64,000 nucleotides of DNA, taken from the NCBI GenBank assembly GCA_029204225.1, contig CM055102.1, positions 25,772,922 to 25,836,921 on the forward strand. Direction: 5' to 3'. Positions 575 to 63,989 of the stretch are shown in pieces. This stretch comes from Diphasiastrum complanatum. Lineage: Eukaryota > Streptophyta > Lycopodiopsida > Lycopodiales > Lycopodiaceae. The number at the start of each line of letters is the position of its first letter. Position 1 is the stretch's first letter. The notes under the pieces are model-generated. The model was given only the letters and a program-made list of their open reading frames with translations. It ran no database searches and was not told the DNA's origin. Position numbers and translations under genes: made by a program.

Positions 575-1320
575 AAGAGATGAATTCTCCACAAAAAAAA
601 ACTTTGATCATTATTTCTCCAAGTAGGTACAACCATTTATAACTTCCAAAATGTCATTTGGCCAATTGCCCTAAATGGTAACTTCTTGGTACTTCATAAA
701 AAAACCTAGAAATTCTAGTCTAGATGCAATGTATGAAATCTAGCCAATTAAAATGGGTCCAAATCCAACCTCATCCACTTATCTACTTGCCAAAAATTGT
801 ACAAACACTATTTAGGCCTTTATTGACAATATAAATCTATCTCTAAGTTGAAATTTCATGTTGGCCTCAAAATTGCCAAAATAGATCAACTAAACTAGTT
901 AAATTTTTCACACTCCCTCTTCAACTAGTTTTAGCATAGATTTAGCCACACTACTTTGATCCATCTTAAGAATGATCTCCATCCTAAGTATAGACCTCCT
1001 TTCTATGATTTTATAATAACTGTCATAATTGATATAGAGAATAGTGTCCACATTGGATGCTTCACTATTTCTTACATCAATTTTACATGTCAAGATGTAA
1101 CTAGAACATGAAGAACCAAATAGAATGTAAATGAAATGATTCCTCCATGCTTCCAACTTTGAACTCTCTGGAAAATAACATCAAACAAACAAAAAAATGT
1201 GAGTAATCAACCAATGCTTGCATGTCTCCTCTCTTTGTCCTTTCTTGATATGTCTCCCCCATGAAAATCCATGAATGAGCCTCCATCTCCATCTTGCCAT
1301 AAGATATCATCAACCCTTGA
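575..1320 (-). mobile_element. Ty1/copia remnant (3' LTR and integrase-distal part)
   Basis: About 575-912 matches the LTR at 40208-40699, including AACTAAACTAGTTAAATTTT and an end in TTTTTCACA. It is followed on the minus-strand upstream side by a purine tract (CTCCCTCTTC on plus) serving as polypurine tract. About 913-1320 matches the minus-strand region 40700-41090 that trails the copia integrase. The rest of the element is missing here. The first 80 bases of the window read LLCHKGHFTEC on plus, the end of a copia gag zinc knuckle, but its link to this copy is unclear. Confidence 0.65.
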
Positions 1321-2499: not shown

Positions 2500-3590
2500 A
2501 GCATGGTATCTCTCTCTTAACGTCATCGATATATCGACAGACTAAAAAGTCGGCCTTATCGCAGACAAGCTGAATGGATCCAATTACTACTTGTGAAAAT
2601 TTAAGATGAAGACCTTGCTAATTGCCAACGAGTTGTGGAATGTTGTCATAGATATCGAAGTGAAGCCTGAAGATGACACATAAGACTCAAAATAGAAGTC
2701 GAAGGATGATAAAACTTTTGCACTTATTATTCTCAATATATCAGACACTTAGATTGGCCACATATCTGAAGCTCAAACTTCGAAAGGAGTATGAGACATC
2801 CTAAGCTCACTATATGATGTGAAGGACCTAACTTCTAAGTTACATCTATGAAGAAAATTCTTCACTCTCGAGATGTCTAATGGTGATTCACTTCAAAATC
2901 ACGTTAACTAGTTTAAGAATCTCTTGCTATCGATGGCCATTGTCGGATCTCAAGATGCAATTATGACATTGCTTTCAAGCTTGTCCTCTACATATGAGAA
3001 CTAAGTGATGATCATATCGACACACTCAGGTTTAACTCTTACTAGAGTTATCACTATGTTGCTGCAGAAAGATAATTGAAGAAGTCAAGACGCTTTGTCA
3101 ACTTCATCATCTCATGCTCTATATGTCAACAAAGGCTCAAAATGACAGAAGCAGAAAAGCTCTAAGCAATCCGCATTAAATCAAAAGCTGACTCAAAGTC
3201 AAGAACAATTATCAAATCCACAACCGAAGAAGAAGATGTTTTGTAAGTATTGCAAGCGCACTAATCATGAGATCCATAATTGCAGAGTTCTCAAAGCAAA
3301 GAATGCTAGCAAGCAACCTGATCAATAGGCGAACGCAGTCACAACATCTCCCAATCTCGACGTGGACGCATTTATGGTCAAAGACCAAAAGGCACTATTG
3401 GGTAATTCTTGGTTTCTGGAATCTAGAGCTACTCAACATATGACCAGTCATCGTCAACATTTTCACTCCTATATGCCTTACAGTACAAAGAAATACGTTC
3501 ATCTTGGCGACAATAGCACTCACACTATCGAAGGTGAAGGTATTGTGAGATCTCTTCTTCCTCAAATTTCTCAGCAAAAATAGCAAAATC
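2500..3590 (+). pseudogene. Ty1/copia gag-protease remnant
   Basis: Plus-strand reading with several stops and small shifts shows a copia gag start (KLNGSNYY, FKMKTLLIANELWNVV), a zinc knuckle CKYCKRTNHEIHNC near 3240, and a protease region with WFLESRATQHMTSH and YVHLGDNSTH (3362-3583). The protease D-S/T-G triad is degraded to ESRAT. Integrase and reverse transcriptase do not follow; the element breaks near 3590. Confidence 0.75.
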
Positions 3591-3984
3591 ACCAAAAAGG
3601 GCCTCCACAATAGCCAAAGTATCATTTTTTTTAATAAATTCAAGGTAGATCCTATCTCAATCCAAAGTTCCAAGGAGATTAATAAGACAAAGGACTTTTA
3701 TCTTCAGGTCTAGCAGCAAAACAAGTAGCCCAATCACTTTCAATAGTAAAATCATGCATAGTGACAGCCTTTTTCATGCAACATATCAAGGTCAGGTGGA
3801 GAAAGGAACTCCCCATAACCTAAAGCAACGACATCCTGAAACCATCTTGAGGACTAAACAAAAAAAGACCTATGTTAGTCGATGAATCATAATAAAAGGT
3901 AAAGGTTTGATACTACCCCAACCAAAGGATAGTCAGATTTACATCCCAAGGATGTAGAGAGAGAGTTAAAGGCATACACATAGT

Positions 3985-4760
3985 TTATCTTGCTAAAGCA
4001 AACCCAAACCCTTTGAAATCTTTATTCATAAGTCAACAAGGTAAAAGATAGCTGAAAAGTAAAATATAGTACAGAAAAGCACCATAAAGCAAAACTTATT
4101 TCAAGACATCCGATTGGTACCTACCACTATCTCACAACACAAAACCGTGCTAGTTAGTATGTCAAGAAGACAGTTGTCAATGTTGAATGACACTTGTTAA
4201 TAAGCTTTGCTACTTAACAGCTTTATGAGAAATAAAAGTACATAGTCTGATCTTCCCATCCATGTGTGAGTTTAAAATAGGCCAAGTCGTCTTTTAACCC
4301 TATTAGGGCAAAAGCCATTTTGATTAGTGTTTGCGGCATTAGTCCATATCAATCAGTATTTAATTATCACAACACTTGGAAAAAAAGTTATCATACTTAC
4401 GAAATGCCTAGCAAATAGGATGAGTAGACACACGCGCACAAAGGTATTAGGGCAAATCCATGCCATTCTTTTTTTTCTCTTGTGTAACAAGTCGTAAACT
4501 AGTGCCGAGACCCCTGAGCAGATCCATGCTTTCCAGGGGTGCTCAAGCTCAAATCCTATTTTTGTTCAGAATCTTAACTTGAAGGGAAATTATGAAACTT
4601 AAGAAGTTATTTGAGTTGCAACTAAGAAATTTAGCATTGGCTAGTATAGTCCCAAAAGCGGTGTTAGGGCATATCCATGCCATACTAACCCAAGAGACTA
4701 TTAAGACTCTTGCGCAAATCCATGTATCCCAAAAGTACCGAGCCAAAAAAAAACCACAAA
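3985..4760. repeat. Unclassified dispersed repeat, copy 1
   Basis: This matches 6510-7290 in the same orientation. Shared anchors in order are CCTTT..TTATTCATAA, TAGCTGAAAAGTA, AAAGCACC.TAAAGCAAAAC, ATTTCAAGACATCC, GGTACCT.CCAC.ATC, then a diverged stretch, then four hairpins. No protein is recognised on either strand. It ends in an A-run near 4744-4753. Confidence 0.75.
4443..4735. ncRNA. Four-hairpin array, locus 1 (candidate structured RNA)
   Basis: Four hairpins lie at about 4451-4464, 4511-4539, 4663-4689 and 4707-4735. Each has a six-base loop ending ATCCA, closed by an inner stem xGCA/TGyx, then a 3-base bulge on the right, then an outer stem: CCCCTG/CAGGGG, GTTAG/CTAAC and CTCTTG/CAAAAG for hairpins 2-4. 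Hairpin 1 has lost the outer stem. Which strand is transcribed, if either, is unknown: G-T wobbles occur in both senses. Confidence 0.5.
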
Positions 4761-5601
4761 ATTGTGTATAAGATTAAGCAAATTATTGTTTAGAGTATAA
4801 ATATATGGTGTTTGAATGAGGTATTGGATAGGTTATAAGACTAAGATTGAAGAGAGAGACACAGAGAAAGCTTGCTATTATAAAGTTTCTGCTTGTTACC
4901 CATAGTAACACTACTATGTCTACCTTTTTTCCATGACGAGACTTGTTTATAACATAGATACCTGTTATAAACATACCTGAATAGAAGTGGATGTGTTTTC
5001 TTGTGAGGATGCCATAGTACTTCCACAAATATTGAGTCTTCATGCCTACCAAAAAAAAATTAACACTATTCAGTGTGGATTCATAAGAGAGAAATATCAC
5101 AAGCAGTTCCTTAAAAACTTAATGAGAAATATATACCTTTTGCAAGAAACCTTTTGTTATGAGCAAGCACAAGTACTATCTACCTCGAAATGCAATTGTT
5201 AGACAAGAATCATTTGTGTAATATATAGTTACGTATGATAGAGGTGTTGTACCTAAGACCGAAGTATGCTTGAACAGTAATTTAAGCTATATGTGGTAGA
5301 AATTCATTCCGAACGTATAGAGTGCCGGGAACATTCCATAGCAGCGAGATATTATGCTTTGTTAGTCATTTGCATTGCACAAGACATCAATAAGTATGAG
5401 AGCATTTTGTGAAAATAGAGTAACAATGTGAGAACGATTGAATCGTTGTGTCAGATGTGCCACTCATCACTGATCGATCGCTCGTCAATGTATGTGTTGA
5501 TAGTAGAAAAACGTGAGTTAAGTGGTATGCTTACACAGCGATTTCCAGCATAGATCGCTGAAAAGCGGTGAAAAGAAGTGGTGAATTTTTTTTATGTAAG
5601 C

Positions 5602-5900
5602 CATGCGGCTATCAGTAGCGATGGACTGTCCCTCATCATTGATGTATGAGAAACAACAACCAAACAAGATGTATATATTTTTTTATGATCCATGCAGTTG
5701 TCAGCAGCGATGGACTATCTCTCATGGATGTATGAGAAACAACAACCAAACAAGATGTATGTTTGTTTTTGTGTGTAATCCATGCGGCTGTCAACAACGA
5801 TGGACTGTCTCTCATAAATGTATGAGAAACGTCAACCAAACAAGATTTATATGTCTTTGTGTGAGAGTCAAGCGACTGTCAGCAGCGATGGACTGCCGCT
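5602..5900 (+). repeat. 90-bp tandem repeat, about 3.3 copies
   Basis: GCGATGGACT recurs at about 5617, 5707, 5797 and 5886, with TGTATGAGAAAC and CAACCAAACAAGAT between. The array is open on plus for 107 codons, but the frame simply follows the repeat length, so no protein is called. A nearby stretch (about 6200-6235) contains GTATAAATAGCC, which could be a TATA box of an unrecognised LTR or promoter. Confidence 0.85.
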
Positions 5901-6444
5901 GGTCATGTAGGCAAGGTGGAAGATGAAAATGACTCCTCATGCGCTAGTGTATCACAGCGTTGATCCAACGCATGTATTACCATTCAAAAAGTATGCAACT
6001 CATACTATAGTTGGCCGCAACATACTACTGATCCACAAAACCGTAAAGAACCAAGCATTTTGTGAGCTGATCATTGGTCGAATGTAATCCGTAGTGGTGT
6101 AGCTGGGCGCTGTCAAGAGGAGATGGGCACGTAGAAGAGCACGTAGAAGAGAAGTGGAAGTGAGAGTAGGAAGAAGAAGAAAGAAGAAGTGGTGATGGCT
6201 ATTAGTTTTGTTACGTATAAATAGCCGAAAGTTACCTCAAGGACTCATCGTGTGAATCTTAGTGGAAGGAACCACGAGATGGCTTGTGTTGGAAGCCAAC
6301 GTTACCATCCGTTGGATAAAAATAGGGTTCATCTTGACCATTGGAAAAGAAAACCATACGAAACTTAAACTTATTAAGAGAGACCCAATGTGTCGGAATG
6401 TGACCGATGGTGCCGAAAATACAAACATTTTATAACAAGATGGA

Positions 6445-6451
<7 letters not shown>

Positions 6452-6478
<27 letters not shown>
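6452..6478 (+). repeat. (AG)n microsatellite
   Basis: About 13 uninterrupted AG units, just left of copy 2 of the dispersed repeat. Confidence 0.95.
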
Positions 6479-6481
<3 letters not shown>

Positions 6482-6509
6482 TTAACAAAACAAAGCTCAT
6501 CTTGACAAG

Positions 6510-7290
6510 TCAAGACCAAATCTTTTAAAACCCTTTATTCATAAACCAACAAAAAAAAACATAGCTGAAAAGTATACAGTACTCATAAAGCACCGTAAAG
6601 CAAAACCTATTTCAAGACATCCACTGGTACCTGCCACCATCCCACCACACAAAACCGCACAAGTTAGCACAGTGAGGAAGACAAGTGTCAACGCTGAATG
6701 TCAGTTACTATCCATGTACAAAATAAGCTCGCCAACTTGACATCATGCAATACCAATGACATTATAAAGTCCAATCTTCCTTACTAAGTATTGTTTATAG
6801 CGATAGGCCAAACCATAACTTTATCGTATCATGGCTTCTGCCATTCTGATCAGTATATTGGTATTGGTCATTATTTTTATATTCAATCATTCATTAAGTA
6901 TGGAAATCTAGCTGTATTAAATAGATTGCAACCAGGCGTAGCTTGGACTTGTACATAAGTATTGGGGCAAATCCATGCCATACAAATACTTGCACCTGTT
7001 ATACAAAGAACAGGTAATGTACAGTTTTCGTAACTCTTGAGCATATCCATGATTTCCAAGAGCAACAAGCTATGCTCCTGTTTTATGAATCTTAAAATCT
7101 AATCGTGTCGTATTAACAAGTTAAACAATACTTGTGTGCATATACAACTACTAAAGAGTTTAATCTTAACATTTACAATAGGATTAGGGCAATTCCATGT
7201 CATTCCAATCCCTATGAATGCAATAGCTCTTGCACAAATCCATGTGCTTTTAAAAGCATTTAGGTTACCAACCCTTATTATACTAAATAT
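6510..7290. repeat. Unclassified dispersed repeat, copy 2
   Basis: Second copy of the 3985-4760 repeat, 2.5 kb away and in the same orientation, with the same left-to-right anchors and the same four-hairpin tail. An (AG)n tract (6452-6478) lies just before it. Divergence is considerable outside the anchors, so the copies are old or the family is diverse. Confidence 0.75.
6959..7257. ncRNA. Four-hairpin array, locus 2 (candidate structured RNA)
   Basis: Same architecture and spacing as locus 1. Outer stems are GTATT/AATAC (6959-6989), CTCTTG/CAAGAG (7034-7062), GGATT/AATCC (7181-7211) and GCTCTT/AAAAGC (7226-7257). Inner stems are GGCA/TGCC, AGCA/TGAT, GGCA/TGTC and GCACA/TGTGC. The loops are AATCCA, TATCCA, ATTCCA and AATCCA. 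Stems change while loop and layout stay, as expected for a conserved fold. The intervals between hairpins (72, 147, 45 bases) resemble locus 1 (about 65, 152, 44). Confidence 0.5.
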
Positions 7291-8336
7291 TAACCCAACA
7301 TATGCTGAGGTTTCAAAAGAATTAAGGCAAAAAGAGATCTTTTATGTTATGGAATTGTTTTATGAAGCATGACCAATGGTTAATGTTGCTTATACTCTAC
7401 TTCAAATGTAAGCAAGATAGGCCTAATGCCTTACTTTATAGCATTGTATCTCCTCTACTACAATACCAATTCCATCCATAGATTTTGAGACCACATTATT
7501 TTTTGCGATCATACAACCAAAGTACGTTTGAAGCACCAACCTGAATAGTTGTCATAAGGGAATCATGTGAAGAAGTCATGATTGTTCAAGGACGCCCCCT
7601 TCTTTAAACAAAAAACGGTTTTTGACAAATCTAGGTCTATATATCGAAATGAGTTACAACAAGCCCCAGAATAGTGTCACACATTACACCATAACAAAGC
7701 ATATTCCTTTGAATTCTATTTATTCTTGACTTACGATAGCTTAGAAGCATAACATTGCATATAGTTGTCCTTACCATAATCAAAGAAATGTGTGACGGAT
7801 TTTGAAATACTTTGAAAACAAATGGATTAAAGTCGAAGACTTAAGTGTTAAGAGTTAGTCACAACATAAGCTATAAAATTAGAATTATCTCACACTATAT
7901 GCAAAGTGAGAGTTGTATGCTTACATCTTGCATTTAAAATATATGATTATTTGCCTTATAATTATCTACATTACACAAGTGTTCATGTCAATATCATACT
8001 TAAGGTTAGTATTAGTAAGTGTGAAAGATATGCAATTCCAAACATAGGCCAATACATGAGGCCAATTTAAGAAGATATTCCTTGTCATATTTTGGACCTC
8101 ACATGTGTGAATACCGATTACAAAAAGGCCGAATGTTTTACAACAAGTTAGCTCTTGAAGTGCTACACGTTATCTCTTTCCATTGGTTACATCTATCAAT
8201 GCACCATCTTCACCGTTGGTGATAATCTAGCACTAGGAACAAATATTGTGTGATCTTCCATTAGACTATAAATACCCATTCATTTTATTCTCATGTGTTA
8301 GACAAGTTTTGCAATTTAACTTCTTTTGATCACATC

Positions 8337-12856: not shown

Positions 12857-15800
12857 AGAGTTACTGATGTTCATACACCATTCTTACTTGAAGATTGCTA
12901 TGTGATGCATCATTTTCTGCCTGCTATCTAAAAGCCAACATGTGATGGTCTTTCTCTAATCTGTTCATAACATCATATCTGAGCACTTTTATGGACAAGT
13001 GGGAGAGTTTTTCTCCCAACGACTAAGATCGGCTATTGATTGATCCAACTTACTCCAGCAATTATTTTGAGAATCATCCTTTGTTTTCAACTTTAACTGC
13101 AGGCATCTCCCACAAGAGCATTTGTTTGCTACCAAATATAAGCAAGTCAACAAGTTAACCAAAACCTGCTATTTACATTTTCTTACAAAACACCACAGGC
13201 CGGTGTGAGCCATTTCAATATATATAATTTACACTTTACCAGTCCAATGTGTTCACACTGAGGCAAGAATATAAGTACATGACAATGGTAGCTGAGGATA
13301 AGATACGAGTTGATTTTATTGTAGCATCCTATTCTGTTAGGTGTGAAATTGGGACTAAACAATTGCAAGGTAAGACAAAAACTAGCTCAAAAAGGCCTAC
13401 GTATGTACATGTCCTATCTAGCACAATTTTGCATTGACTTCAAAGTGATGCAACCTGAAAAACTAGGACTTGCATTCATATTCTAAAGAGCAGCTCAAGA
13501 AAACGAAATGATTTCGCAAAGAAAATCTTACCCTAGGAAAGTAACCAGGTTTGAATGGCAATTCCTTCACTAATTTTTTCTTCAAGTCTTCCACTCCGTG
13601 ACCAAATTTTGCACTTATAGTTAAAACCTCCTCAAAACCTCCATGTTGCTGGTACCACTGGTGAGTGCCAAAAAGAAGTACCAGAAATGTTCAAATCACC
13701 ATTGGGTTTCACAAGCTAGTACTATTCAGCTTGTCAAAAGAGTTGAGCAGTTATTCTGTTTTCTTTCCATCTTGAGTCATCGACGAACATATCTATGATA
13801 CATTGTAATCTAAGTAGATTGCAAGTTGAAGGAATAAAATACTGGAAAGGAAACGTTTCAACTTTCCTAAGATTCTCTCAATTGAAACCCGTTTCAATAT
13901 CAACTTTTCAAATTAACATTGTCTGGCATCTAGTGCTAATTTGCTGTAACACACATTATCTGTTTATTGGAGGCAGATCATTCACTCAGGACGTACAGTT
14001 GCAAAAATTGGCTTGACTTTGACAGTGTGTCGAATGTAATTGCAGCCTTGAAAGCTGTGTAACAAATGGAACCACAACTTGATTCAGTTGAGCACTTTTA
14101 CACTGACCTCTCTCTTTTTCGCAATCTCTCCAGGCTTAATGAGATCTTTCTTATTCAACACCAAAATTGTGGCCTTTTCTTTAATAGCCGTAGCACTAAC
14201 TTTCTCCAACAAGTCGACAACCTGGACACACAAGCATTATAACATGAAACGAGCTTCAAAGATTCAATGTGAGGGCTAGTCATGCAGGCAACTAACACAC
14301 CTCAAATCACAAAACCTCTGAATTTAGCAAGGCAATGCCAACAAGCCAAAACACCCTGAATGTATGTTCATATGAATGTGTGCTTGTGCATCATACGAGA
14401 TAAAGTCAATGGATGACAAACGAACTTGCTCTGGTGGCTTGCAGATATCTGCTACTATAAGCAGACAATCTGCATCGAGAATTGTTCTCTCGGTGCTCTG
14501 TACCATCATCTCATCCAGCTTATGCATTCTTTTAGAAATAATTCCTGGTGTGTCATACAATTTCATCTGCACAAGAAAATTATGATTCTCATCAAGGTTA
14601 AATGGTCTCAGCAATCTAATTTTCCGAAACTGTCCAATTGACAATGCCACAAACTTGTCATAACTCCATCTACTACAATGGTTTGTACTTGAACAATTTT
14701 TTATTTCTAAAATTGATCTTCTGAACAAAAATGCAGCTCTTATAACGTTACACCCATTAGCTTGTTCTTAAAGTCCAATGGAAATCAAGCTATGTGGAAA
14801 GAACTAAAGATAGATGCGCGCTCTAACTCCACATTGCACTTCAAATAATCTTGTGGCATTCATCTAGACAAGACAACCTACACAATTTTTCACATGGTCA
14901 AATCATGAAACCAATCTATCCCTAGCAATGATGCTTGTCTGCCAATTTTTGACCTCTAGCCAATTTGAAGTCTCACCAACAAGAATATGGCTCTTAAGCA
15001 ATAGTAAGATCGGCTCATCTTGCTGATTTATGTTTGACTACCTGGTAATTTTGTCCAGAACAGGTGATTGATCTGTGGTTTGCTACCTGGTAGTTCGGTC
15101 CAGAACAGATGCCGGGGATGCGATGACGTGTAGTTTGAGGCTTAGTGGTAACGATAGATAGTTTTTCTCCAAGTAGCTGATTCAGAAGCATGCTTTTTCC
15201 TACATTGGCTTTACCAATCAAGGCTACGAGGCCTACCAAAAAAAAAATAATAAAAGTCTGTCAGAATCAGAGTGATTTTCAGCACAAACTTAACTCTATA
15301 TGGACCTTTCACTACATGGTAACGAGATTCAGCATGGGCAAAGATCAAAATTATAGTGTAACGCTATGGGCATCCAAAGAAGGCCAGTTCTCCCAGACTT
15401 AAAGAATAAGTCCCACATATTTACATATGCATGTGTGTGTGCATGATTATTGATAGTTAGTATGCATGAGTACATTAAGAAATACTGATTGAAGGCAATG
15501 CCCATGAAAGCCTGAGTTCTTTCATTCAAAGTACAATGAGGAAAAATTACAGCGATCAATTTTCTAAAAACCAGAAAAAAAGCTGTCATGTGTGTTGGCT
15601 TGAACAAAGTTTATTACATAGGATAATATACCTTGATGTCCTTGAAGTTTTAGGATTTTTCATATCATGGACTTAAGGCGTTGATATCAGAAGTAAGACA
15701 AACATCAATATGGTGAAAGGATAGATCCTAACATCTCGACTCGGGCCAATTCCAAATGCAATTATAGGACGTTTCTTTGATGGAACGTAAAAAAGACCCT

Positions 15801-31259: not shown

Positions 31260-52522
<21,263 letters not shown>

Positions 52523-58818: not shown

Positions 58819-61140
58819 ATCAACTGTGTGCCCAGGTCATCTACATGCATGGGATGGGTGCTGTCCGTAGGCAAGTCGACCTGGCGCTCCAAATCTGATA
58901 TCTTCGTCTGCAAGACCAAAATTGAGCGTGTCAGGAAAACAACTTGATCAAAAATTGAAACCTACATTTTAGTGAGACGTCAACCAACATGCAATGGGAG
59001 AATAGCTTTTCACCTGCAATGCGCTCGTAATGGTCGGCAGTCTCCTGGCGAGATGTGCGTTGGTGCTACAGAACACCAACCGCTCCAACTGACTCATTGA
59101 CAGCCTGTTTCTTCTCCTCGTGTGAATGAGTGCCCATGTGCTCCAATTACGCTCACACACGGAGGTAGCGCAGTCCTGTGGTACGTGCAATGAAATGGTT
59201 CAGCACACGTGCACGGGTGGAACGTCAACGAAACACAGCAAGGGAGGATGAGATGAGATGCATACTTGTGAAAGGACCCGCAGTGCAAGACGCTGTATGG
59301 ATGGATAGGTGCTGCCGAACATGGTCCACCAGGTAATGGGGAGTTGCCTCCTCTCTGGATCCTGAGCAGCCGGGTGACCGAACTTGCCCATGCCGAAACG
59401 AAATGCAGCCTCCATGAGCCTGATAGGATCCAAACCTATGTGTGGACCCACCCTGTGAATGTACTGAAGCCAATCGGCCTCGAGTTCCCTGTCTGCGATC
59501 TGTGTCGGAGAGAGGAAGAGGGGATGCAGCATGTGTGCAACGCTGTGGATACTCCTGTGGAAGTAGTTCCACCGCGTCTCCCATATGAACTTTAGCTCTG
59601 TCATCCTGCAGTTGAGAGGCATGTGGTTTAGGGCATTACGAAAAACCGTAACATTCACAAAAAAACAAACTAGCAACCGTTGAAAAGATAAAGAACAATT
59701 ACAACACTGTACCGCTTACCTCTCTGGCTGCAAGATGGGCAGCTGCAGGAACTGTCCAATCTGGTCCATGAGCTCATACACCAGTCCCAAGTGTTGACCC
59801 CTCGCTGTCAGCCATGCGGAGCACACTGTAGAGTGGTCGAAGCAGTCCTGACATGTCTGTGCATCTCTCCAGAACTGGTCTCCCCTCACCGTGGAAGAGA
59901 AGTGCTCCCCATCCTCAGTGTGCTGAAACGTATTGGAATGCCAAAGATCACTGGCAACTATCTGTAGAAGCTCCGCCCTACACCTGATAAGACGGTCGAT
60001 GACCTCCAAGTCAAATGCAAAGCGTGTGGGGGCTGGCTTACGGAGGTCCAGATGGCTGAATACCCGAAACATGGCAAGAACACGCCTCTTTTTGGTGACA
60101 AAAGTCACCAGGAAGAGGGCCTCCCGGACGATGGCTCTAACCCAGGGAAGTGCTCCTATGTCCCCCATCAGAAGGTCTATGTCGTGCACTGCACAGGGGG
60201 TATGAACAATATGAGGGAACTCGGCCTCTAGCAGTACACCCATCTGAATGCAATTCGTGGCATTGTCCGTCACCACCGTGACGACATGCTGTGGGCCTAT
60301 GGCTAGGATGGAAGACCTGATGACATCAAACATGAACTCTGCAGATATCACTCTCCCCCCCTGCTGCAATCCACTGCCCTCAAAAACTGTGTGCCCATGC
60401 AGCTGGAGACCAGTATGTTGAGGATCGGCCTCCTCCTGACATCAGTCCAGCCATCGGACATGATGCTGCAACCGTAAGTGGCCCAGTGCCGACGCAGAGG
60501 CTCCATCTCTCTAGACAAGGACTCAACCCTATCCCTCAGCATGTGTGTGCGGACAACCTCTGAACTAGGGACTCTCCAGCTAGGGCTGACAGACTGTGCA
60601 AGGCGGAAGGCCCTTCTGAAGGGCTCAGAGTCGGTGATGGCAAAGGGTAGCTTCAGCTCGTAAATCAGACTGGCCACGGCCTGTGTGGCCTCTCTGTCCA
60701 TGTGCGGCTGATGCGCGCCGCGAATGGTCTGCTGCACAAGGGCTCTCCCTGGTGGGCGACGGGTGGTGGACCTCTAGCACGGTGCACCAACCGTGACGGG
60801 AATGGACGATGACGCGACAGGCTGGGCACTGGTGGATGCATCGGCTGTAGACGTGGAATGGGGAGAGTGGGATGCACTGGCAGGGATGGGTGCAGCAGCA
60901 TAGGTGGGGTGCACTGGTGGAGGGGCAACATCTGGCATGGGGTACGAAAACTGCTGGCTGAGGAGGTCATCCGAATGGGAAGGGAAGGAAGAAGGGATTT
61001 CTTCCACATCCTCGAAGGCCCCAGCAGTAGCATCCTGGGCTTGCTCGGGTGGCGGAGAATCCATGAGAAAGTCGTAGACTGGGGGAGTGCGAGCAACAGT
61101 GGGTGGTGGTGGAACCGCAGTGGCAACTGGCGGACGCGAT
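57267..61140 (-). pseudogene. hAT transposase with Pro-rich tail and AT-hook
   Basis: Cut-and-paste transposase of the BED/DUF659/hAT-C type. From 61140 on minus: Ser/Pro-rich linker; DUF659 (LKLPFAITDSEPFRRAF, CSIMSDGWTDVRRRPIL, 60373-60737); catalytic region (VVTVVTDNATNCIQMGVLLE, PHIVHTPCAVHDIDLL, 59719-60369); IWETRWNYFHRSIHS (59266-59607); dimerisation exon CERNWSTWALIHTRRRNRLS (59014-59175); then an unusually long tail from 58907 with an Arg-Glu repeat, acidic and Pro-rich parts, and AT-hook RKRPGRPKG near 57550. Defects: stop near 60777, shifts near 60370, 58525 and 58150, TAA at 57525; the tail then reads on to TGA at 57267. No BED finger on this strand. Confidence 0.82.
58786..58816 (+). 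repeat. (CT)n tract inside the transposase coding region
   Basis: On the minus coding strand the tract is (GA)n and encodes alternating Glu-Arg in the transposase tail. The frame stays open through it. Confidence 0.85.
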
Positions 61141-62692: not shown

Positions 62693-63989
62693 TCAAAACT
62701 CAAAGTCCGGGAAACTCTTCCTTAGATTGCCTTCTAGTTCCCATGAATCCTCATCATCAAGATATCCTTTCCAACGAACCAGATGCTCAATAACATCCCA
62801 ATTTCGCAATCGCTTGGATCTTGTATCAAGAATCTTTTTAGGTTCTAAAGGAATCCTCTCAGATAAGTCCTCAAATGAATCTGGATTAGTACCAGAACCA
62901 ACATGATCTCCCTCATGTAAACTTCTTCAGACGACTTACATGAAACATAGGATGAGCCTTGGTTCCCTCTGGTAACTCTAATCGGTAAACTAAAGATTCA
63001 ATCTTTTTCAAGATTTTATATGGTCCACTGTACCTAGCAGACAATTTGTAATGCTTGCCAGTGTGCATTACCTTAGAATCCTTCGGAATTCTAAGATACA
63101 CCCAATCCTCAACTTGAAACTCCTGAGGCGATCTTTTCAGATTAGCAGAAATCTGCTACTTTCTGAACTTTAATCGACTCAGTTTCAACCGTTATCAGAG
63201 ATTTAGGCTGAAATCCATACATAAGCATAAACGGACTATATTCAGTAGCCGAATGCTTACTACTGTTATAAGCAAACTCAATCAATGGAAGATACCTTTC
63301 CCACTGAGATTGCCTAAGTGAAACATATGCACGAAGCATTTGTTCCATCGTCTGATTAGTCCTCTCCGTCTGACCATCGGATTCCGGATGATCAGTCGAG
63401 CCCATGCTCAGGGACGTCTCAAGCTTTTCAAACACTGTTGTCCAAAATCGACTTGTAAACTTAGGATCCCGGTCACTAACAATGTTAGATGGCAACCCAT
63501 ATAATCTGAGCAAACGTTCAACAAAAACTTGAGCTAATTCAGACACTTTGACTGTGTCTTTACCAAAAAAAACGTAGCCTATTTTGTTAATCGATCAACT
63601 ATGACCCAAATTGCATCATTTTGTTTATTCGTCCTCGGTAAACCAACTACAAAATCCATTGAAATACTATCCCACCGTTTAGAAGGAATATCCAATGGAT
63701 GCAACAATCCACCAGCCTTTAAGGGCTTAGCTTTATTCCATTGGCATTGATCACAATTCAACACATAGGATTCTACGAAAGGTTTCAACTTTGGCCAAAA
63801 AAGGTCCCTTCGTACCAAATCTAGTGTACGATGTATACCTGGATGCCCAGCACAAGGTGTGTCATGACATTCTTTTAAAATTTTCTTTTTTAATGCATAT
63901 ATTCCTGGTACACACACTTTTTCCTTTTGGAACAAAATCCCATTCCGAATGGAAAAATCATCCACTACCTTCTTATCTTTCACAACCAA
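62693..63989 (-). pseudogene. Chromovirus integrase with chromodomain
   Basis: Minus, running off the window: zinc-binding domain (ECHDTPCAGHPGIHRTLDLV, CDQCQWNKA), core (WDSISMDFVVGLPRTNKQND, RLYGLPSNIVSDRDPKFTSR, HPESDGQTERTNQTMEQML), C-terminal domain (KLSARYSGPYKILKKIES, HPMFHVSRLKKF) and a chromodomain (EHLVRWKGYLDDEDSWELEG) ending at TGA 62693-62695. Frameshifts near 63570 and 63130 break it. Such chromodomains guide insertion to particular chromatin. The best-preserved retroelement protein in the window. Confidence 0.88.

Follow-up and report, generated by a model that had tools for sequence, protein, structure and literature searches.

In a 64,000-nt stretch of the Diphasiastrum complanatum genome (assembly GCA_029204225.1, contig CM055102.1, positions 25,772,922-25,836,921 of the forward strand; hereafter the window) we found eight hairpins with a fixed loop and conserved, co-varying stems, a structure that is well supported by the comparisons given below. 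The hairpins form two arrays of four, at 4444-4736 and 6959-7257, which are the 5' parts, if the minus strand is read, of two paralogous units. We propose that these units are two tandem, diverged paralogous genes for non-coding RNAs (ncRNAs) on the minus strand, polyadenylated and ~0.7-0.8 kb long, in which the hairpins would serve as repeated putative protein-docking sites. To this proposal as a whole we give an even chance.

The two units are ~0.75-0.8 kb each, share one orientation and lie ~2.5 kb apart. Each consists, in minus-strand order, of four hairpins (H1-H4) that alternate between two types (B, A, B, A), a weakly conserved stretch and a conserved block that leads to an AATAAA. A preliminary description of this DNA had placed the arrays at one end of a dispersed repeat of ~780 bp, but blastn within the window returned a tandem pair in the same orientation and no third copy. 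Identity between the paralogs is 96/131 in the hairpins, 142/178 in the 3' block and 209/386 in the linkers (54% as aligned). Outside the units, both the paralog alignment and blastn showed that similarity decays upstream of the first hairpin and past the AATAAA. Because the pair is tandem and conservation falls away beyond these two points, the units resemble a duplicated RNA gene more closely than they do a mobile element. The window also contains, at 5587-5906 between the units, a tandem repeat with a 90-bp period (~3.6 copies). The elements of the two arrays are the following, with the pairs formed in the outer and inner stems and the score of each element in a covariance model built from all eight:

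4706-4736, minus strand: copy 1 H1, type B; outer 7/7, inner 3/4; 38.0 bits
4661-4691, minus strand: copy 1 H2, type A; outer 6/7, inner 4/4; 40.5 bits
4510-4540, minus strand: copy 1 H3, type B; outer 7/7, inner 4/4; 40.4 bits
4444-4474, minus strand: copy 1 H4, type A, outer stem lost; outer 3/7, inner 4/4; 36.7 bits; 8-nt gap relative to copy 2
4306-4318, minus strand: copy 1, perhaps a fifth, degenerate element, GGC UUUU GCC; seen by eye and in the alignment, no match to the covariance model
7226-7257, minus strand: copy 2 H1, type B, with a 4-nt bulge; outer 6/7, inner 4/4; 33.8 bits
7181-7211, minus strand: copy 2 H2, type A; outer 7/7, inner 3/4; 38.7 bits
7033-7063, minus strand: copy 2 H3, type B; outer 7/7, inner 3/4; 39.3 bits
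6959-6989, minus strand: copy 2 H4, type A; outer 6/7, inner 4/4; 43.5 bits
6831-6844, minus strand: copy 2, perhaps a fifth, degenerate element, AUGGC AGAA GCCAU; seen by eye and in the alignment, no match to the covariance model

All eight elements follow one plan on the minus strand, with a 7-nt arm, a 3-nt bulge, a 4-nt arm, the loop UGGAWN (8/8 elements), a 4-nt arm and a 7-nt arm. Each hairpin and stem quoted in the preliminary description was present. Its one-sided bulge was also confirmed, lying on the right if the plus strand is read and on the 5' side if the minus strand is read, but in the register used here it measures 4 nt in copy 2 H1 and 3 nt in each of the other seven elements, rather than 3-5 bases. 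Similarly, the outer stem that it gave to every hairpin is found in seven elements, with 6-7 of 7 positions paired, and is lost in copy 1 H4. The inner stems pair at 29/32 positions, with a single mismatch each in copy 1 H1, copy 2 H2 and copy 2 H3. Since the elements belong to two types within two paralogous units, they represent fewer than eight independent events. On its 5' side (7246-7257, minus strand) copy 2 H1 contains a perfect 12-nt palindrome, GCTTTTAAAAGC, noticed by eye, which might form a competing fold.

We compared the pairing of the arms with several expectations. The outer arms of the eight elements pair at 49/56 positions, and arms drawn at random averaged 28.1 (sd 3.1), with a best value of 40 in 20,000 draws; in this null the 5' arm was taken at random from both units with the same choice of bulge allowed. 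When the arms were re-paired among the eight elements, only 4 of the 40,320 arrangements, the true one included, equalled the elements' own pairing. The mean of these re-pairings was as high as 35.4 because the arms of type B are alike and able to pair between hairpins. In the alignment of the eight elements, 87.5% of 88 cells are paired, compared with 28-48% after sliding by 1-3 columns, and change on both sides of a pair occurs in 20 cells, compared with 7.1 in shuffles and 3-7 after sliding. Eight of the 11 pairs show such two-sided change. None of 500 shuffles matched the number of paired cells, the number of changed cells or the covariation score, two matched the count of pairs that change on both sides and three that of further pair types, in a test that treats eight related rows as independent and ignores their kinship.

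The comparison between the paralogs is the test that respects descent. It took in the outer stems of H1-H3, H4 being excluded because copy 1 H4 is without its 5' arm. Among the 21 columns, four changed on both sides with the pair kept, three on the 5' side only and one on the 3' side only, and 13 were unchanged (Fisher p 0.025). Two of the four one-sided changes still pair via G-U, and in the other two the pair is missing in one copy. Extending the count to H1-H4 with the inner stems (44 columns) gave 27 columns that are the same, three with a one-sided change and four with a two-sided change that keep the pair, and 10 that are unpaired in one copy, six of which fall in the broken copy 1 H4 or its partner column. 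Counted arm by arm, the paralogs differ at 3/24 loop positions, 1/16 positions of the inner 3' arm, 3/16 of the inner 5' arm, 6/28 of the outer 3' arm and 12/28 of the outer 5' arm. Hence, what is conserved is the sequence in the loop and inner stem, and the pairing in the outer stem. The co-varying stems around a fixed loop that the preliminary description had reported were thus recovered both among the eight elements and in the coupled changes between the paralogs.

The same description had proposed a search with a covariance model. The model built from the eight hairpins found those eight only in the window up to E = 5, a match that follows from its construction. A descriptor of the element with the loop TGGANN had nine matches on the minus strand of the window, seven of them among the eight elements and the others at 621 and 761, and three on the plus strand; eight Markov sequences of the minus strand contained 0-4 matches each. 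Without the loop the descriptor was not rare (722 matches on the minus and 604 on the plus strand, compared with 479-548 in Markov sequences), and it is therefore the loop that makes the elements rare. Exact element patterns had no match in viral contigs. The core pattern occurred in 29 stretches of prokaryote genomes, about the level computed for chance in 257 billion bases, and the hairpin array was not seen at any of these 29 loci. The covariance model gave one match each in 23 of the 29 up to E = 1, with a best score of 24.1 bits compared with 33.8-43.5 bits for the eight elements; weak matches of this kind are expected because the loci were picked by the core pattern. Single 35-36-nt pieces containing the hairpins had z-scores between -0.91 and -2.24 on the minus strand and between +0.52 and -3.39 on the plus strand. 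Fold energies of single sequences are weak evidence here, and the joint pairing is strong evidence.

Besides the hairpins, the units share a block at the opposite end, with these features:

4020-4200, minus strand: copy 1 conserved 3' block, 142/178 aligned bases identical to copy 2
4065-4086, minus strand: copy 1 hairpin within the 3' block in the minimum free energy (MFE) fold; the alignment fold pairs this stretch otherwise
4021-4026, minus strand: copy 1 AATAAA, aligned with the AATAAA of copy 2
6534-6715, minus strand: copy 2 conserved 3' block, from the paralog alignment
6575-6597, minus strand: copy 2 hairpin within the 3' block in the MFE fold, also classed as a terminator-like stem
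6534-6539, minus strand: copy 2 AATAAA, aligned with the AATAAA of copy 1

The fold of this block is ambiguous, as both single folds contain the hairpin and the alignment fold has another pairing, in which 2/46 pairs changed on both sides. On the minus strand, each unit has an AATAAA close to its 3' end. At the matching place on the plus strand there is none; the single plus-strand AATAAA within the units belongs to copy 1, where it precedes the hairpins (4231). The preliminary description had left the strand open. We favour the minus strand because on it the AATAAA of each unit terminates the most highly conserved block and similarity declines past that point. The summed energies of the single hairpin pieces were -74.3 on the minus and -62.4 on the plus strand. 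A strand call from fold energy was dropped, since shuffles attribute the larger minus-strand energies to base composition.

According to our proposal, the minus strand would be transcribed into two RNAs, one from ~4740 to ~4000 and the other from ~7260 to ~6515. The 5' half of each RNA would carry two B-A pairs of the bulged UGGAWN hairpin on poorly conserved linkers, and the 3' part would contain the conserved block followed by a poly(A) signal, and the RNA would be polyadenylated. Transcription, polyadenylation and strand are inferred from this layout. A bulged hairpin that is present four times, with UGGA invariant in the loop and letters free to vary in the outer stem, fits the expectation for a putative protein-binding site repeated for avidity. 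The hairpins may then form a multivalent platform on which a single RNA-binding protein recognises the loop together with the 5' bulge in the context of the stem, which is the least certain step, and we conjecture that the RNA would thereby gather or titrate several copies of that protein. The docking function is likewise a conjecture, as are the protein partner and the effect of its binding.

Several observations weigh against this proposal. The AATAAA hexamer occurs in the window at the frequency expected by chance (87 compared with 89.9), and the signals of two paralogs count as one witness, not two. A conserved promoter between the two copies was not found in the paralog alignment. The stems leave the strand undecided, with five G-U pairs on the minus strand compared with four places where they would form on the plus strand, and the mean z-scores of the single hairpins are close (-1.50 on the minus and -1.44 on the plus strand). 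Whole units are not unusually stable, with z-scores of -1.69 and -0.58 on the minus and -1.28 and -2.24 on the plus strand. One of the eight elements, copy 1 H4, has lost its outer stem, with a run of A for a 5' arm and an 8-nt gap there in the alignment, and the predicted fold of copy 2 H3 has an open inner stem. Free folding of the two-unit alignment recovered the H2 and H3 outer stems as well as the H4 inner stem, and paired H1 with distant parts. In that fold, 22/145 pairs changed on both sides, which we did not count as evidence because the folding program favours such pairs.

We considered whether the repeats encode protein. In one frame, seven elements read TGG-ATN-TGC (W-I-C; N = T, A or C) and one reads TGG-AAT-TGC (W-N-C). 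The stretch H1-H2 is open in the W-I-C frame in both copies without indels, the other two frames having stops, and three of the four B-A pairs share one open frame. A coding repeat with this frame under selection would explain these features, but copy 2 H3 and H4 are in different frames, frames that start with ATG reach at most 44 and 55 amino acids, and the coupled changes of the arms would be left unexplained. Moreover, the four frames that contain the hairpins had no Pfam domain at E values up to 1, and in the best open frame of the ungapped H1-H2 stretch 9 codons are identical, 2 differ synonymously and 11 non-synonymously. For these last two reasons we rejected the coding reading, which we consider very unlikely; the synonymous pattern that the preliminary description had named as speaking for a coding frame was not borne out. 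The loops could instead belong to a spliced mRNA, as part of a 5' leader whose hairpins enclose the AUG found where stem and loop meet, for translational control or as the start of upstream frames. CAUGGA is present at all eight loops, and in three of the four type A elements the AUG is followed by three codons and UAA. These short frames are not conserved, however: the fourth type A element has no stop there and those of type B run on. The units also end in AATAAA and no coding sequence was recognised, and a leader of this kind seems improbable to us. We give slightly less credence still to sites that act in DNA instead of RNA, such as palindromic binding sites or cruciforms. The strand-symmetric fit of the stems agrees with such sites, which should conserve the sequence of the arms, yet the outer 5' arms differ at 12/28 positions between the paralogs, and the register used here retains five G-U pairs, of which two occupy matching positions in the H1 of either copy.

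Other readings keep the RNA and change its nature. The hairpins might be a module at the 3' end of the plus-strand RNA of a mobile element, read there by its reverse transcriptase. Stems that fit the plus strand about equally and the retroelement pieces in the window are in line with this, but the window has two copies in tandem, and the AATAAA and the best conserved block are at the opposite end. Flanking duplications were not noticed either, though no test aimed at them was made. We judge a mobile-element module to be unlikely, if somewhat less so than an mRNA leader. The preliminary description had suggested a structured RNA module of an undescribed element; of this, the co-varying structure and the lack of an Rfam family agree with our results, and the mobile or dispersed element does not, given the tandem pair. 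It is also conceivable, with a probability that we rate as low but above that of a mobile element, that the RNA genes belong to a plant long non-coding RNA (lncRNA) family that is already described, such as GUT15/CR20, and whose structure is not in Rfam. GUT15/CR20 would be another name for the genes and is compatible with the docking reading. A review (PMC10226578) presents GUT15/CR20 as mRNA-like plant ncRNAs, a lncRNA family that angiosperms share and for which functional data are limited. Judged from their linkers, the paralogs are old enough to suggest a family of some standing; the likeness to GUT15/CR20 is one of general description.

We next compared the units with known RNAs. The preliminary description knew of no plant RNA family with this layout, and we obtained no match to Rfam in the window at gathering thresholds. 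Up to E = 10, the region 3900-7500 matched only snosnR61, below threshold and away from the hairpins (plus strand, 4175-4253). ENOD40, a plant RNA that combines conserved hairpins with very short frames, is represented by models in Rfam, where no family reached its threshold in the window. IPS1, At4, Mt4 and TPSI1 are short polyadenylated plant non-coding RNAs; the miR399-pairing motif of this family had no match in the window with up to three mismatches. The iron-responsive element is also a hexaloop hairpin with a one-sided 5' bulge, but its loop is CAGUGN, unlike the UGGAWN found here, and Rfam again gave no match. Six spellings of the core element were not found in the literature searched. 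One of six further fragments occurs in a mouse study.

The closest parallel in design, not in descent, is the A-repeat of Xist, which PMC5742192 describes as repeated hairpin-forming cores on variable linkers and a proposed multimerisation platform for protein binding. Both systems repeat short conserved hairpin cores between variable linkers. Xist has 7.5-8.5 units of ~26 nt, in which the loops are AUCG and the linkers rich in U, whereas the units described here have four elements of 31-32 nt with the UGGAWN hexaloop and a one-sided bulge. We tentatively suggest, as something rather less than probable, that the units represent an undescribed RNA family, that is, a duplicated plant ncRNA gene whose four-hairpin UGGAWN array is a multivalent docking platform similar in design to the Xist A-repeat.

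The whole case rests on one locus, in which two diverged paralogs with four repeats each provide internal replication. Few plant lncRNAs have a structure that is shown by co-variation instead of a single fold. The comparison of the arms also indicates which nucleotides a partner would read, namely the loop, the inner CA/UG and the 5' bulge, the outer arms needing only to pair. With the element dissected in this way, pull-down and rescue experiments are easily designed.

Other features of the window include pieces of mobile elements and of a GTPase, which fit a plant genome. Copia-type pieces, with matches to Pol_BBD, SH3_retrovirus and gag_pre-integrs, lie at 3329-3580 (plus strand) and at 40717-42032 and 911-1180 (both minus strand); by eye, part of the frame at 40717 recurs in that at 911-1180. 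A hAT-like DUF659 domain is split across two frames at 59716-60737 (minus strand), and the retroelement domain Integrase_H2C2, an integrase zinc-binding domain, lies at 63579-63989 (minus strand). Exon-like GTPase frames are found at 14327-15260 (minus strand), with MMR_HSR1 below the cut-off at 14327-14767 and matched with E 8.4e-12 at 15018-15260.

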